Below are positions 21,719 through 29,686 of a DNA stretch of 64,000 bases, in pieces. Numbering within the stretch: position 1 is the stretch's first letter; each line of letters starts with the position of its first letter. The DNA is from Halichondria panicea (lineage: Eukaryota; Porifera; Demospongiae; Suberitida; Halichondriidae): NCBI RefSeq assembly GCF_963675165.1, contig NC_087380.1, positions 5,030,071 through 5,094,070 of the forward strand. Reading direction: 5' to 3'. The position numbers were made by a program, and so were the translations under genes. A model generated the notes under the pieces. The model was not told the origin of the DNA. It ran no database searches and saw nothing but the letters and a program-made list of their open reading frames with translations.

Positions 21719-24059
21719 ATGATAGCTTCTCAGGCACTTTTTAACAGCTACTTGCAGGGAAAAGAGATCTGCAGTAAAGACCCTGTGCAAAGGACTGAAG
21801 AAGAGTTGATAATATTAGAACAATGGCTTCTTGAAAGATCAAGCCTGTTTAAAACCACAACGAAAGGTACGCTTCTTTTAACAATAAAGGTAATGTTTAC
21901 TCCCTCAAACTCTTACAGATGGTTTCCGCAAAGTTTGCAAGCACGCGTCACTTACAGTGTTCAAACAAGACCAGGTGATATATCAGCAAGAGGATGTTGT
22001 AGTGTGGTGAGTTGTACACATTCACATTTTGCTTACAATTGACTATTGAATACAGCTTCTTTGTTATCCTGAGAGGCTCGGTGTCATTAATGTCTGATTC
22101 GAAGTTTCCAGCTAAAACATGTGCACAATCGAATCAGATGATCCTATCCACAGGAAAAGTGGCAGCAGATCGCAAGATTGTTGCTGCAAGCTTGGGTGCA
22201 GAAGTAGAAGTGCTAAGGCCAGGGAATTATTTTGGTCAGGAGGGTCTGTTGCAAAGAGATGATGTAACATCTTTTTCCGCCATAGCAACGGAATACACTG
22301 AGCTTTTAACGATTGAAGGTTACCTTTTTGAAGAGGTTTTTCTGGCTTTTTTTGAATCCGACTTGTACAACAAAGCTCTCTACTTTGCTAATCTTGATCT
22401 CTTCTCAAAGTGGTCCCCCTATCTTCTTCGACAGCTAGCTCTTTCTGCGAAAGAGGTCGATTTTGAAAATGGTGAATGCCTATTCAGGCAGGGAACAAAA
22501 CTGTCACATGTGCTCGTTATAAAATCAGGCTCAGTCAAATTGTCTGCTGGGAGCATTTCTAAGCCCCCTAGAGAGCTGCTAGAGCAAATTGTTCCACCAA
22601 AAGATTATCTATCTGAAATTTTAGCCGAACCCTCAATTAGCACTATGAAGCCATTCAAGTCCCTGATAAGAAGCCGTACATATAGTGCCTCTCGACCAGG
22701 TCTGCTGAGTGCATCTCCTTCAACTACAAGCAATGCCTTTCTATCGCAGTCACGAGTCTTGCTAAGGCATACAGTGTCTTCTCCTCAGAAAAGAAAAAGT
22801 AAATATTTACCTAAAGCTCCCAAATTCCCAAATCCCAAAATGGGCTTTCGGCTTCAGGAACCAAGGCCACGTTCAACTTATCAGCTGTGCTGCCTTCACC
22901 GGGGGGGAATGCTCAACCACATTGAGACAATTTGTAACGTGAAGCATTCTCTCTTCAATGCTGTTTCATTGTCTGACACAGTGGTGTACACAATAGACAT
23001 CGTCACCTTAATGCAACTCTTGGAAAAGAGGTCGATTCAGAGCCTCCACTTACTTCTTAAGCAAAGTCTTAAACGTGTTCAAGCATGGAATAACAGAAAT
23101 CCATGCATTCTATTGTTTAAACCACTTACGGAAGTTTTACAGCAATCAATGAAGCATCTTCAAACAGGTCTTAACAGTGCACATGGCAGAAAGCTAAATA
23201 TGTCCGTCGTGCATTCTCCAGAGAAACTTGCTTATGTTGCCACAAAAAATCTTGGGAAAAATCTTTCTTCAAACTTTAGGGTTTGTACTGATACATCTCA
23301 AGAAAAATCTACAGATGTCGCTACATCAACATCAGTGAGACGGCAGTTTTTCATTCGTCAACTAACCAGTGAATCGCTTGATACCAGCTATGTTCATGTA
23401 AGCAAAAAGCATACTTCATTTGATGCTCCTCTCCCTAGAAACCATGCTACTACCTACTGTTTTCCAGAAGTTTCGGAGGTTTCCCTTTCAACTAACTCTT
23501 CACAAACCTGTCTCGTGACTATTGAGGAGCATGGCTTACCAACTTGTGAATCTGAAATCAAAATGCCATTGACAAACATTTCTCTGGCTCCAAAAACACA
23601 GCTGGGTTCAATCTCTAATTGTAGCAATATTGAATATCAACCTCTACATGTTGCAGACAATCATTTCAAGTATTGCATGGTGCCTAAAAAGAAAGAACTT
23701 ACTATCGACCAACGTTGTGATGAAACATCACTGTTGAATGCAAGAACTCAACATCACTCTGGATATGGCTCACTACCTAAATCAAAAGCGCCAAAAAGCA
23801 AAGATCCCTGCAGCTCTCTTTTAGGCATTAATGGCCAAAGCTCTTTCAGACATGTCCCAAGTTTACTATCTATGGTAAATTCAAACACTTTCATGCGTCA
23901 TGTGTGTATATTCTTGCATCACTGTAGAGATGTACAATGAAGACCAAACTATGCAAGGATGTTCCTGACCAGATATCCCGAAGGTCAAAGAGGCATGCTC
24001 CCATTCCACGTCACCCACCTGTCAATTTAACACTGACCACAAAACCATACTACACATGA
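21719..24059 (+). CDS. Protein with two cyclic-nucleotide-binding-like domains
   Basis: Four exons: 21719-21866, 21919-22006, 22056-23874, 23928-24059, giving 728 residues. The first CNBD starts with RTEEELIILEQWLLE and has VIYQQEDVVVCFFVILRGSV, LRPGNYFGQEGLL and DVTSFSAIATEYTELLTIEG. The Arg of the canonical phosphate-binding cassette (R-[TS]-A) is replaced (SFSAIA), so cAMP/cGMP binding is doubtful. A second CNBD-like fold begins at NLDLFSKWSPYLLRQLA with VDFENGECLFRQGTKLSHVLVIKSG and is split by a basic Ser-rich insert of about 120 residues. The last 350 residues are low-complexity. The layout recalls the CNBD1/CNBD2 group, but the subfamily is not certain. The last intron (23875-23927, 53 bp) could be retained, giving a stop at 23940. 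I prefer splicing because an AATAAA follows the spliced stop by 12 bp. Confidence 0.75.
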
Positions 24060-24371: not shown

Positions 24372-27300
24372 ATGTACCTTTCAATCATCTCAACCTGTAT
24401 GCTGCTTTTTGCAGCCTTTCAAATCAGCCATGGACATGTTAGACTGACTTTCCCACCAGCAAGATTCCCTGACTATGATTTTCTGGACAATGTGAGAACT
24501 GGAGGTCCTTGTGGAGTACCAGGTAAATATAGCTGGTTAGATCTCTATGGTGATAAAATCAGTAATTTATATCGTAAACAAAAGATGAATTGATATCGGA
24601 TGAATTAATCGACTGAATTGATTTTTTGCAGAAAATCTTGACAGTGAGGTGACTACTTTCCAAGCTGGAGCTACTTTCAACGTATCTTTTCATTTGGCAT
24701 ATTCACACAGGGTACATTTCAGAATACTTCCCTTGAATACAATGCCCACTACAAATTATATACTTTAAACTTTACTATATTTAATATGACGGTGCTGCAT
24801 TAGTGTTTATCTCGTCTCTATAGGGTGGAATCCTACTCAACCTTCTATCTCCAAATGGCACCATTATCCATCCTCTGCTAGGACTCCAGTGGCAAAACTC
24901 TAATGACTCAACGTGAGTTTATATCTACTGAGTCGTCAGTAATTGATTAAGGAGATTTTATTTTTTGACAGTCTCCTGTACCAAGAGGTGACCCTGCCCA
25001 CAGGGTTCTCATGTGAGCGGTGTGTGTTTCAGCTGCTAAGACAAGCTGCAGAGTGGACTGCTGCTGGGGGATACACTTTCTGGTCATGTGCCGATATTGC
25101 TATAGTTGATTCTCCAGGTTAGTGCTCTTCAAAGTGAAACGGAACTTGCCAAAATAATTATAGACATCACCATCTATACAATATAGCGCGTGGATTCTGT
25201 AGCCATGTAATGTTGTAGTCTACAACTAGCCAATGGTATATAACTTTGAAGCAATTTTTATATGAATTTAACTTTTTTAACTTTTTGCAGAGGCTGTATG
25301 CAACAACCAGACCTGTTCAGGAAATGGTGTCTGTTCGAGTGGAGTGTGTGAATGTGAAAGACTCTACAGCGGAAAATTTTGCCAGCAAAAAAGTGAATTA
25401 TGAAAGCAGTTTATGAGCTAGCTGTATATAATTATACACATGTACATACATAGGGTAGTCAGCACTTAGTAATTTTGAGCACCTAGCTATGTAATACGTC
25501 TATCACTCTTTCAGGTGAGTGTGAAGATGACAATGATTGTGGTGGCAGCTCCCGTGGCTCTTGCATTGACTTGGAGACCGTCAGCTTCCCATCAATGATG
25601 TGCTTTTGTGCTGCTGGTTGGCATGGAGACAATTGTTTAAACGGTAAGTTAACAGTGAAATGTCACGTGAAGTATGAGTCTTTGTGTTGTACGTTGTACA
25701 CGGCAGTTTATATTATTTTATTTCTGCAGCATCCAGTCTGACTGATGCCACTATTGACCCTGCTGAATACACACTCACGACGCAACTCAACGAGAGACTG
25801 ACACTTCATGTCAAGATTGTTGGGGTTAGTGACTTTTGGGAGCTACATGTACATGACTATAGACCGCATTATTATGTAGCTGAGTGTCCCATGTTGCACC
25901 CAGAGCAGCTTCAAAGTGCAGTAGAGGCCATTTGCCTCATCCGAAGCCTGTAGTGCATCCGTATTTATTTATAGGTGTTTGTAAATTTAGTTCAAGGAAA
26001 TCGTTATAACAAAGCTTCAGCAGTTCTTTGATACGTGTGTTCACCTAATGGGTTCTGCTACAGTTGAGGTTGGGCTAGCAGCCGGTGTTGGTTCAGCTTG
26101 TACTTGTACACATGTATGTATTCACATAAACAAACTTGATGTCACTAACCCATATTGTCACAGCTCTTTGGGAGCACAGTCAGGCAAAAAAGTTTCCTGT
26201 ACAGGAAACCGGGTGCATTTCCTGTTCCCAGGTCTGCTGTAAACATTGTGGTCTTGCAATAAGAGTCCCTCTGTAGACTAAGAGTAATAAGCGTCCTTAA
26301 TGGTTTCAGTTATGGGTGCTTATGTAGTCTGCGTGTGATCAATAAAGGCTGATAGCAAAACTTGAATAGAAATAGCTACTTGTACATGTATGTAGGATTT
26401 GCTACCTAAAATGCTAACAATTGCAGTGATGTGGCTAGAATTTTCGAAGTAGTGGCTATTTTCAATCCTCACGTAGTAAACTAGGCCTACATGTAAGTGG
26501 TACGTGGTTTTTGTGTCTAGAGGTGGTTAGTACCGACCGCCACCAACCAGTGTGGGCACATTGCAATTAATATTCATAATTATGTGCAGAATGAGATTGA
26601 GATTGCTCTAAAACATAATGGCACTGGATACGTGGCTTTTGGATGGAGACCCACTGGACTGGATGGTAGTTGTCGTGTAGCTTCACCTGGAGCCTACGTT
26701 GTTGGTGAGCCCTTTTATTTATAGCAGGATCAGGAGTGCATGAATAATGAACTCTTGTTCTATCGCAATAGCATTGTGCTGGGAATATCTCTATAGCTAT
26801 AGATTAACATGCTAAGCAAGAATTAGCAAAAGGAAATATGTTTCCTTTCCATTTGCAGGCGCCGATCCTATGTGGCCTGATGGCACACAGTTCCCGGTTC
26901 TTATGGGCGGCTCAGTCGTCTACCAATCACTCGACACGGCATCAGATGCTGGGGATGGTGTGAATGAAGAGGGGGCAAGTGAAGAGGGGGCAAGTGAAGA
27001 GGGGGCAAATGAAGAGGGTGCAAATGAAGAGGCGGCAAATGAAGAGGGTGCAAATGAAGAAGGGGCAAATGAAGAGGGGGCAAGTGAAGAGGGGGCAAAT
27101 GAAGAGGGGGCAAGTGAAGAGGGAGCAAATGAAGAGGGGGCGCCTGAAACAACTGCTGGAGGAGGTACATATTAACTTCAAACATTAAAACAAGCGTATC
27201 AATGACAATGTAACATTTAATTTTTGCCCGTAGGCCCCCTTCATCCTATGGATTGTACCGACATTGTGATTGGCGCTGCCAGAAATGATAGATTCCGAAT

Positions 27301-29686
27301 ATTTGACTACTACACTCGTGACAGGGCCACTCCTCGGAGGGATAGTTTCTATGGTGGCCGTGATGATATAACTGCAGCTGTTGGCAAAGAAGAAGACGGT
27401 ATCACTTCTATTAAGTGGAGGAAGCCTCTAACGTCAAGTAAGGATTCGCATTGATAAACATTTGCAGCAATTATAAAGTTGCACGTTCGTTTTCATAGAA
27501 TACACTTGCATGCATGGATAACATGTGCTTAGAACGTGTGTTCTTTCCTTATCTCATAATTAATCAAACATGTGAAGGAAACAGGAAGTTTTGACACGGA
27601 TTTTTGAAGCAATTATACAACCATACTAGTTTGTGGAGGGGTCACTTTATACATTTTTTTGTTTGGTGTCCTTTGACAGTCATTGTTCTTTCCTTGAAAG
27701 AACCCACAAACGATGCTTCAATCATTCAACACCATGACATGCATGCAGGCATACATTTTGTAAACAAACATGCACCGAACCAAAACATAGACTGACCTTG
27801 ATTGTGAAAAGCCAAAACAATGCACGTTCTATCTAGTCACACAGTAACACGCACACACACACACACACAACAGGTGAACTTGCTGATCATGACATCTCCA
27901 CTCAACTCATGAGTGTTATCTGGTCTTTCGGACAAGTCTACCCTGATTACTTCCATTTCCCTAGCTCTGGAATCGAAGCCGGAACTGTCAGTAACGAACG
28001 TTTCTACAAGCCGGATGAAATCAAATATCATGGCACCCGTAACCGTGGATCGACCAGCATCAACTTTTTCGATGTTGACACGGACAGTGGTGTGGATAGA
28101 TGCAGTGGCAGTGTTAGACGGGACTGTGCCAACATGGATGAAGAGTGTGGCTACCAGGCAAAATGGACACAGCTGGGTGATGTCGTTAGGTTCTCAATCT
28201 CTGCCAGGAAGACAGCTCCTAGAACAGAGTGGCTGGCCATCGGATTCTCCAATGACCAAGATATGGTGAGCACGTGGATGCAACCCGTTAAATATTGGGG
28301 AAGTAAAGTCACACAAGGGGGTTAGATTTTTGCACTGCATTGCTAGGGTACAGCTTTATAATTACAAAAATTGATGTCTCGTTCATCCACACACACACAC
28401 CTAGCGTATGAGTGACATTGTGGTTGGAGCAGCAGATGATTCAGGATTCTTCGTCACTGACAGGTGAGGAAGACTACTAAACTACATTCCTGCACAATTA
28501 TCTATAATTATGTCTGGGTTATGTGTTATGTAAGCCTATAGTTGTTGGGTCCAGCAGCAGCTGTTCCTGCATCCCCCAGGTTTACATCATTGCGTGAGGT
28601 GTTGATGATATTCATAATTCTTTGAGTGGCATCTTTTCAGTATCTCAAGTGTGTGTATTATTGTGGCATTGATAGGTCATACAATTAAACATTCCTGTGT
28701 GTGTGCCAGTCATGCCTGTCTGGGAGGTGGTTAAATCTATTATTTGTTGAGCAATAATTATGTCCCATTTTATTATACTCATAGATGGTACATTGTGAAC
28801 TAGCATTAGTCTATCCACCCATAATGACGGCACTTGGCTATATAATAGCTGATTGATAGAAAATACACTTTATTTCTTGCAGATATGCCACGGCTAAAGC
28901 TCAGCCTCCAATCGATGCTAGTCAGGACATAAGCGACTTTCATGCTTCAGTCAACAATGGTCGAATGTCTCTAACCTTTACCCGCCCCCTGGATGCCACA
29001 GACAGCAATGATATCTCCCTCACTCAGTGCAGGTATTTCCTGCTCGGATGGGGCGGGAGTGCTGATGTGGCAGCCAGGACTATTAGTTACCACTCTCAGA
29101 TACCCATCATACCAAATGAGAGGGTCTGTTTCTTCCCTCCTGAAATATGCCCTGGTAAGTAACTCCAGAATTTGTCACATGATGGCACGACTGTTAAAGC
29201 CTGAAGATATTCCAAGCAAAAGCTTATTTTCTGCCAGTAGCCGTTAATTATCGATTGTACATATACCAACACGAAGCCTTCAATTACATACATGTACTCT
29301 CCCACCCTATCCGTTATCGATTGTACATAATACCAACACGAAGCCTTCAATTACATACATGTACTCTCCCACCCTATCCGTTATCGATTGTACATAATAC
29401 CAACACGAAGCCTTCAATTACATACATGTACTCTCCCACCCTATCCCCTATCCGTTATCGATTGTACATAATACCAACACGAAGCCTTCAATTACATACA
29501 TGTACTCTCCCACCCTAGCCGTTATCGATTGTACATATACCAACACGAAGCCTTCAATTACATACATGTACTCTCCCATATAACACACACACAGCTGATC
29601 GGTTTAGCGGTGCTGGTGCAGTTAGTGCGTCTCTTGTCTCCGTGCTACTTTGCACACTCTTTGCTAAGCTCCTCCTCATATTTTAA
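24372..29686 (+). CDS. Secreted LPMO-like / EGF x2 / DOMON x2 protein, probably GPI-anchored
   Basis: Fourteen exons: 24372-24522, 24632-24711, 24824-24912, 24972-25117, 25291-25392, 25515-25643, 25730-25824, 26590-26704, 26859-27164, 27234-27437, 27874-28265, 28405-28463, 28883-29154, 29595-29686. Phases close to give 743 residues. Residues 1-21 are a signal peptide; cleavage after Ser19 or Gly21 exposes an N-terminal His (HGHVRLTFPPAR). With FHLAYSHRGG (His71/His76) this recalls the copper histidine brace of LPMO and BIM1/X325-type proteins. Two EGF domains follow (about 156-190 and 190-232: CSGNGVC...CECERLYSGKFC, then CFCAAGWHGDNC). DOMON 1 spans about 233-500 and is interrupted by 12 acidic pentamers; DOMON 2 spans about 545-700 (EWLAIGFSNDQDM, DIVVGAADDSGFFV). 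The end, SGAGA plus a hydrophobic tail, fits a GPI-attachment signal. Domain names are by eye; copper, haem and substrate are inference. Confidence 0.72.
26963..27142 (+). repeat. Coding 15-bp minisatellite, 12 x (N/S)EEGA
   Basis: Twelve 15-bp units encode NEEGA, SEEGA and one NEEAA. All six frames are open or nearly so because of the purine bias. It encodes an acidic, probably disordered loop inside DOMON 1, between the strand ending ...VVYQSLDTAS and the HPMDCTDIVIGAA strand. Confidence 0.95.
29242..29577. repeat. 67-bp minisatellite, five copies, in the last intron of the LPMO-like gene
   Basis: The unit starts CCGTTATCGATTGTACATA, contains ACCAACACGAAGCCTTCAA and ends ATGTACTCTCCCACCC. 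The copies are nearly identical. One border has a small CCCCTAT expansion, and the first and last copies lack one AT step. The array fills the intron between 29154 and 29595. Confidence 0.95.

Follow-up and report, generated by a model that had tools for sequence, protein, structure and literature searches.

A putative histidine-brace copper protein with EGF and DOMON domains in the sponge Halichondria panicea

Gene model and domain architecture

A stretch of 64,000 nucleotides from the sponge Halichondria panicea (the window; assembly GCF_963675165.1, contig NC_087380.1, positions 5,030,071 to 5,094,070 of a genome of 131 Mb in 39 contigs) contains a gene that joins an N-terminal domain related to lytic polysaccharide monooxygenases (LPMOs) to two EGF and two DOMON domains. 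The gene lies on the plus strand at 24372–29686, exactly where an earlier note, made from the sequence alone, had placed it. It starts with the ATG at 24372, and 29686 is the last base of the stop codon. The model has 14 exons, GT-AG borders at all 13 introns, and one open frame of 743 codons. The encoded order is signal peptide, copper-brace domain, two EGF domains, two DOMON domains, and a hydrophobic tail. Exons 1–4 encode the signal peptide and the first domain, exons 5–6 the EGF domains, exons 7–11 DOMON1, exons 11–13 DOMON2, and exon 14 the tail. The splicing of the first domain was supported by its homology, which spans the internal exon joins. Bacterial contamination was ruled out, since the gene carries 13 introns. 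The features of the gene are as follows.

24372–24434, plus strand: signal peptide of 21 residues, predicted cut ...SHG/HVRL (gene model and (-3,-1) rule)
24435–25117, plus strand: histidine-brace (LPMO-like) domain, mature residues 1–134 (Pfam and NCBIfam scores, fold matches)
24372–24522, 24632–24711, 24824–24912 and 24972–25117, plus strand: exons 1–4 (gene model)
24435–24437, plus strand: His1 of the mature chain (protein residue 22), putative first brace ligand (bacterial alignment)
24706–24708, plus strand: His55 (protein residue 76), putative second brace ligand (bacterial alignment; aligned with His91 of 5msz)
25291–25643, plus strand: two EGF-like domains, exons 5–6 (Pfam EGF_2 33.4 bits and EGF 32.0 bits, two stretches each)
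25730–28076, plus strand: DOMON1 with a long insertion, exons 7–10 and the start of exon 11 (PF03351; right-hand border inferred)
26963–27141, plus strand: 15-bp tandem repeat of 11.9 copies, in frame, coding for (S/N)EEGA within DOMON1 (repeat search; frame from the gene model)
28077–29154, plus strand: DOMON2, exons 11–13 (PF03351; left-hand border likewise inferred)
29595–29686, plus strand: last exon, a short spacer and a hydrophobic C-terminal tail, GPI-type (glycosylphosphatidylinositol) by eye (gene model)

Signal cleavage was judged by the simple (-3,-1) rule, a general rule for such cuts. Two of the 14 cuts tested fitted it: S19-H20-G21/H22 and L12-F13-A14/A15. The earlier note had the mature chain begin at a His, as HGHVRL or HVRL. 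The first of the two cuts exposes a His, and the likely start is HVRL, not HGHVRL.

The DOMON family (PF03351) matched the whole protein at 1.3e-40. Taken apart, DOMON1 scored 56.2 bits in two stretches and DOMON2 scored 88.6 bits, with a cut-off of 32.7. The two EGF and two DOMON domains read earlier from the sequence were thus recovered, and the anchored-type tail described with them was present as the hydrophobic last exon. The GPI-type character of the tail was judged by eye, and the exon depends on one predicted intron; otherwise the chain would end in ...EICPGK, with no anchor. The protein is probably secreted and anchored at the surface by this tail. The last intron is largely filled by a 67-bp minisatellite at 29248–29578 (about 4.9 copies, 93% matches). 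The acidic (S/N)EEGA run sits ahead of the Met-containing strand of DOMON1, and its length may differ between individuals. An open frame at 22003–23940, immediately upstream and in the same orientation, gave cyclic-nucleotide-binding matches (PF00027, 4.5e-14).

The N-terminal domain and its putative copper site

The strongest family match of the N-terminal domain was the NCBIfam family SCE4755 of bacterial polysaccharide monooxygenase-like proteins (NF043005, sce4755_fam), at 2.6e-9 and 37.3 bits. LPMO_10 (Pfam PF03067) matched the domain alone at 8.2e-6 and 27.1 bits and residues 1–232 at 25.2 bits, both above the cut-off of 23. A profile of 43 bacterial relatives gave the window domain 41.6 bits, against 6.2 bits for the best of 5000 shuffles that kept His1 (3159 of the 5000 gave a reported score). 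The best identity to a bacterial member was 34.5% over 110 aligned residues (L076). Of the kinship with LPMO, BIM1 and X325 proteins suggested earlier, the LPMO part was borne out by the LPMO_10 match; the closest relatives are SCE4755 and animal AA15 proteins, not BIM1 or X325 itself.

The bacterial family was reached with two probe proteins, the one tested scoring 129.9 bits, and seven real loci were found. Of 377 genomes in the phylum of L004 (Myxococcales), 68 had a match to NF043005, the starting genome being one of them, and 65 of these were above the cut-off; in the phylum of L007 the model matched one of 148 genomes, namely the starting genome itself. Of the 88 bacterial loci, 85 (84 of them distinct) had a full-length domain and were aligned. 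L084, L086 and L087 were omitted for partial model coverage; on visual inspection, each of the three starts with a His. In the numbering of the mature window chain, ten columns were invariant in all 85 relatives: His1, Cys26, Gly27, Gly42, His55, Pro95, Cys100, Cys103, Tyr122 and Cys125. Because 43 of the 85 had been chosen by a pattern that required several of these residues, the fair count is that of the other 42, in which all ten columns were kept (42/42). The window protein retains nine of the ten, among them both His and the four Cys; the tenth is Phe122 in place of Tyr.

Both ends of the bacterial chains were examined. The residue before His1 was Ala in 81 relatives, Gly in three and Leu in one, and a signal-peptidase-like AxA triplet stood right before His1 in 69 of 85. 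Seven of ten bacterial tails were scanned for MYXO-CTERM; six matched at E ≤0.022 and one at 1.8, two of them above the cut-off. A crude count of tails, made with no control, found a Cys in the last 45 residues together with at least two Lys or Arg in the last ten in 73 of 85. The family bridges LPMO_10 and BIM1-like: among nine members scanned, six were above the LPMO_10 cut-off and three above the BIM1-like cut-off. Bacterial neighbourhoods were sampled as 59 neighbour frames from L001–L037, selected by length and codon-position G+C. No copper or chitin/cellulose family was among the 25 of 82 families listed, and none occurred in more than four of the 59 frames.

Relatives were also sought elsewhere. 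Sequence searches with the N-terminal domain gave no close relatives in viral contigs or bacterial genomes, and a plasmid search gave two matches that were not significant (E 2 and 8). A protein search of the sponge genome gave weak hits at two further sites (E 0.36 and 0.55), and PF03067 found the window gene at E 0.39 and one other place at 7.1. PF20238 and NF043005 gave zero matches in this genome and missed the window gene as well; the exon-wise search is therefore blind here and says nothing on other copies.

The three-dimensional structure of the N-terminal domain was predicted. A single-sequence prediction (predicted local distance difference test, pLDDT, 45.5) was given no weight for the fold. 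A prediction with seven bacterial rows reached pLDDT 57.0 and a predicted template modelling score of 0.51, with residues 1–35 below pLDDT 50. Among the best 50 of 1436 Foldseek matches in the PDB (E up to 10), 42 were LPMOs by title. The top matches were 4oy7 (3.3e-4) and 5msz (7.4e-4), the only ones below 0.001 among those listed. With VIA-align, the AA15 enzyme 5msz was best (Z 11.9, root-mean-square deviation 3.2, 133 of 134 residues). AA10, AA9 and AA11 followed with Z near 9, LaX325 with 8.8, and the first unrelated beta folds with 8.2 and 8.0. The weak model, given moderate weight, supported an LPMO-like beta-sandwich, in line with the LPMO-like domain of the earlier note, and AA15 stood out among its fold matches.

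The position of the putative copper site was examined with a profile built from the ten-row alignment A4, which combines the window domain with nine bacterial relatives. This profile matched 5msz (1.2e-10), placing His55 over His91 and position 122 over Tyr184; LaX325 was absent among its 16 sequence-profile matches in the PDB. phmmer likewise placed His55 on residue 91 of 5msz, but at E 4.5, which is not significant. In 5msz, His1 and His91 bind copper, and Tyr184 is axial and non-coordinating; an axial Phe is found in three Thermobia LPMOs and most chitin-active AA10s (PMC5823890). An FHLAYSH motif had been singled out in the window protein; of its residues only the last His, His55, aligns with the second brace His. 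The CxxP-type Cys reported with it was not recovered, as the domain has no CxxP and its four Cys are those of PCG, CERC and CADI. At the level of sequence, a predicted mature N-terminal His and a second His are present as in the LPMO superfamily, and the domain likely binds copper.

In LaX325 and in Bim1 (modelled), an Asp on a Gly-rich loop is a ligand, and LPMOs keep this place free (PMC7529816). Residues 36–83 of the mature chain contain zero Asp and zero Glu, with the Asp of LaX325 having no mapped position on the chain. The lack of an acid in this stretch leans to an open, LPMO-like site.

The main rival to the one-electron relay proposed below is copper acquisition of the Bim1 kind, in which the brace would take up Cu(II) at the surface, a DOMON haem would reduce it, and a CTR-type transporter would receive the Cu(I). 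It is consistent with the BIM1-like match (BIM1-like_dom, 23.0 bits, the whole domain from His1), with the three bacterial relatives above the cut-off of that family, with LaX325 among the fold matches, and with the short spacing from His to His. Bim1 is moreover GPI-anchored and partners Ctr1 (PMC10952591, PMC7924993, PMC9258870). The acid-free stretch, with the same reserve on the place of the Asp, the axial Phe, and the better fit of AA15 by both sequence profile and fold argue against it, and copper acquisition is considered somewhat unlikely.

The DOMON domains and the haem question

DOMON2 carries Met603 (28263–28265) and His693 (29091–29093), 90 residues apart, with a Pfam match over residues 563–673. 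Its SNDQDM fits the SXDXXM part of SXDXXMGXD, a motif that animal CYBDOMs conserve at the Met presumed to bind haem (PMC10691727). The corresponding pair of CG8399 is Met286/His379, with a spacing of 93 (PMC10691727), and HYP1 has the candidate pair Met90/His174 (PMC10784544). The profile of the cytochrome domain of cellobiose dehydrogenase (CDH) gave DOMON2 17.5 bits, under the cut-off of 27. DOMON1 carries Met410 (27248–27250), and its candidate late His is residue 500 or 525, both past the Pfam match at 409–492. The Met of each DOMON and the late His of DOMON2 had been noticed before and are all in the gene model. Haem is judged likelier in DOMON2 than in DOMON1.

His525 of DOMON1 lies in YHGTRNRGSTSIN, which resembles YHG.QNRG..S.N (YHGxxNRGxxSxN) of DBH-like genes in the same genome. 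DOMON1 looks nearer to the DBH-like DOMONs of this genome. The DBH-like genes (L089–L096) are clustered on C1 at about 14.86–14.92 Mb and 17.66 Mb and on C12 at about 176–183 kb. PorK matches of DOMON1 (E 0.05–0.06) were taken as chance.

The second rival builds on these DBH-like genes. The DOMONs would hold a sugar or other small ligand with no haem, and the protein would be a variant of the DBH plan in which the histidine-brace domain replaces the DBH-type copper domains. The DBH-like end of DOMON1 agrees with this, as do the Cu2_monoox_C matches found 2–8 kb downstream at seven of the eight other DOMON loci (the exception is C1:17664615). DBH is also the top PDB hit of DOMON2 by sequence, at a non-significant E of 0.31. 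In that weak match, however, the Met of DOMON2 faces a Leu of DBH, and neither the Met nor the His is reportedly present in DBH (PMC10691727); DOMON2 in addition carries the SxDxxM motif. A Pfam scan of the window chain (E up to 5) listed nine families, none of them a Cu2 monooxygenase domain. DOMONs of this haem-free kind are regarded as unlikely.

A cytochrome b561 match was found on another contig (C2:1456422–1456808, 2.0e-21) in the exon-wise search, which may have missed more; it may represent a separate membrane electron donor.

Proposed function and comparison with known systems

The preferred reading, put forward tentatively, is a surface histidine-brace copper protein with a haem-binding DOMON2, probably GPI-anchored, that passes single electrons to its copper. 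The copper site would be mononuclear and formed by His1, through both its N-terminal amine and its side chain, and by His55, with Phe122 axial. The EGF domains would act as spacers between the brace domain and the DOMONs. At least DOMON2 would bind a b-type haem through Met603 and His693. This haem could take its electrons from ascorbate, superoxide or another extracellular donor, or from a membrane reductase nearby, and could pass an electron to Cu(II). In the vicinity of the cell surface, Cu(I) would then react with O2 or H2O2, and a matrix glycan or other surface substrate might be oxidized. The relay from haem to copper within the chain is plausible by analogy with CDH and LPMOs; electron transfer and the oxidation of a substrate are guesses from the same analogy. 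That the protein is a natural single-chain fusion of a haem electron donor with its histidine-brace copper oxygenase at an animal cell surface, the brace copper being reduced by a DOMON haem within one molecule and the copper domain being shared with a bacterial family, is doubtful as a complete statement. The homology of the N-terminal domain, its two His and four Cys, and the domain order are established by sequence and, more weakly, by fold. The observation of the gene and its domains in the earlier note was confirmed, and its interpretation was partly supported.

Several results weigh against the preferred reading. The SCE4755 score of 37.3 bits is below that family's cut-off of 75, LPMO_10 drops to 20.2 bits in the whole-protein scan, under its cut-off, and the BIM1-like match (PF20238) of 23.0 bits, which starts at His1, falls short of the cut-off of 27. 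In the predicted structure, the first residue lies against residue 6 in both 5msz and LaX325, and the structural alignments in other chains begin about five residues past the N-terminal His; with residue 1 misplaced and residues 1–35 poorly predicted, the model gives no brace. The spacing from His1 to His55 is 54 residues versus 90 in TdAA15A, so the domain may lack loops that give LPMOs their flat polysaccharide surface. His693 sits 20 residues beyond the DOMON2 Pfam match, and Met603 is followed by RMSD, not by the GXD of the motif. At the other DOMON loci of the genome, mostly DBH-like, a Met was present in eight of eight and a late YH with a following NRG in six of eight; a Met plus a His is therefore not specific and is no proof of haem. 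None of the nine families listed by the Pfam scan was a flavin or cytochrome b561 domain, and the single cytochrome b561 match in the genome is encoded away from the gene. The window protein departs from the bacterial family at four columns that hardly vary there: Glu51 (84/85) to Leu, Lys22 (83/85) to Thr, Arg60 (81/85) to Leu, and Met111 (84/85) to Ala. These four changes would also suit an N-terminal domain that is a structural or binding relic with no copper, but the retained His1, His55 and four Cys and the aromatic axial position make this highly improbable.

No functional study of the LPMO-like/EGF/DOMON architecture was found in the open-licence PMC literature, and no functional work was found on the bacterial SCE4755 family. 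Judged by its abstract, its outline and a term search, the main text of PMC12537917 makes no mention of DOMON, EGF or X325. If the proposed relay is true, a single animal chain combines the tasks that fungi divide between two secreted proteins, and the protein would offer a defined system for measuring haem-to-copper transfer. The bacterial side ties an uncharacterized family, with both brace His invariant in 85 full-length members, to LPMOs and Bim1. The sponge gene offers a test of whether early animals applied oxidative copper chemistry to their own matrix.

In fungi, CDH and its LPMO are separate secreted chains. The window protein resembles the CDH cytochrome domain and the CYBDOM ferric reductases in having a DOMON with a Met and a late His and in the idea of electron delivery, and differs in that neither a flavin nor a cytochrome b561 domain was found on its chain. 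A 2019 paper on an LPMO tree names the same three domains together in one sentence (PMC6950343); the likeness is one of domain names, taken from the available text.

Compared with BIM1/X325 proteins (PF20238, LaX325), the window domain shows a weak full-length profile match from His1 and a similar small size, and the GPI-type tail recalls the GPI anchor described for Bim1 in the papers cited above. It differs in scoring below the family cut-off and in lacking a candidate Asp in the stretch from residue 36 to residue 83. The AA15 enzyme TdAA15A (5msz) gave the best profile match and the best VIA-align fold match, and its His91 and Tyr184 positions line up with the window domain. AA15 has about 195 residues versus 134 here, and the window protein is shorter between the two His. 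With the SCE4755 family, the window protein shares His1, His55, the PCG, CxxC and CADI motifs, the small size, and, as in many members, a probable C-terminal anchor. It differs in Phe122 for Tyr, in the changes at positions 51, 22, 60 and 111, and in its fusion to EGF and DOMON domains. Given the C-terminal anchors of the bacterial proteins and the GPI-anchored Bim1, a copper site held at the cell surface appears to be the common thread of these systems.

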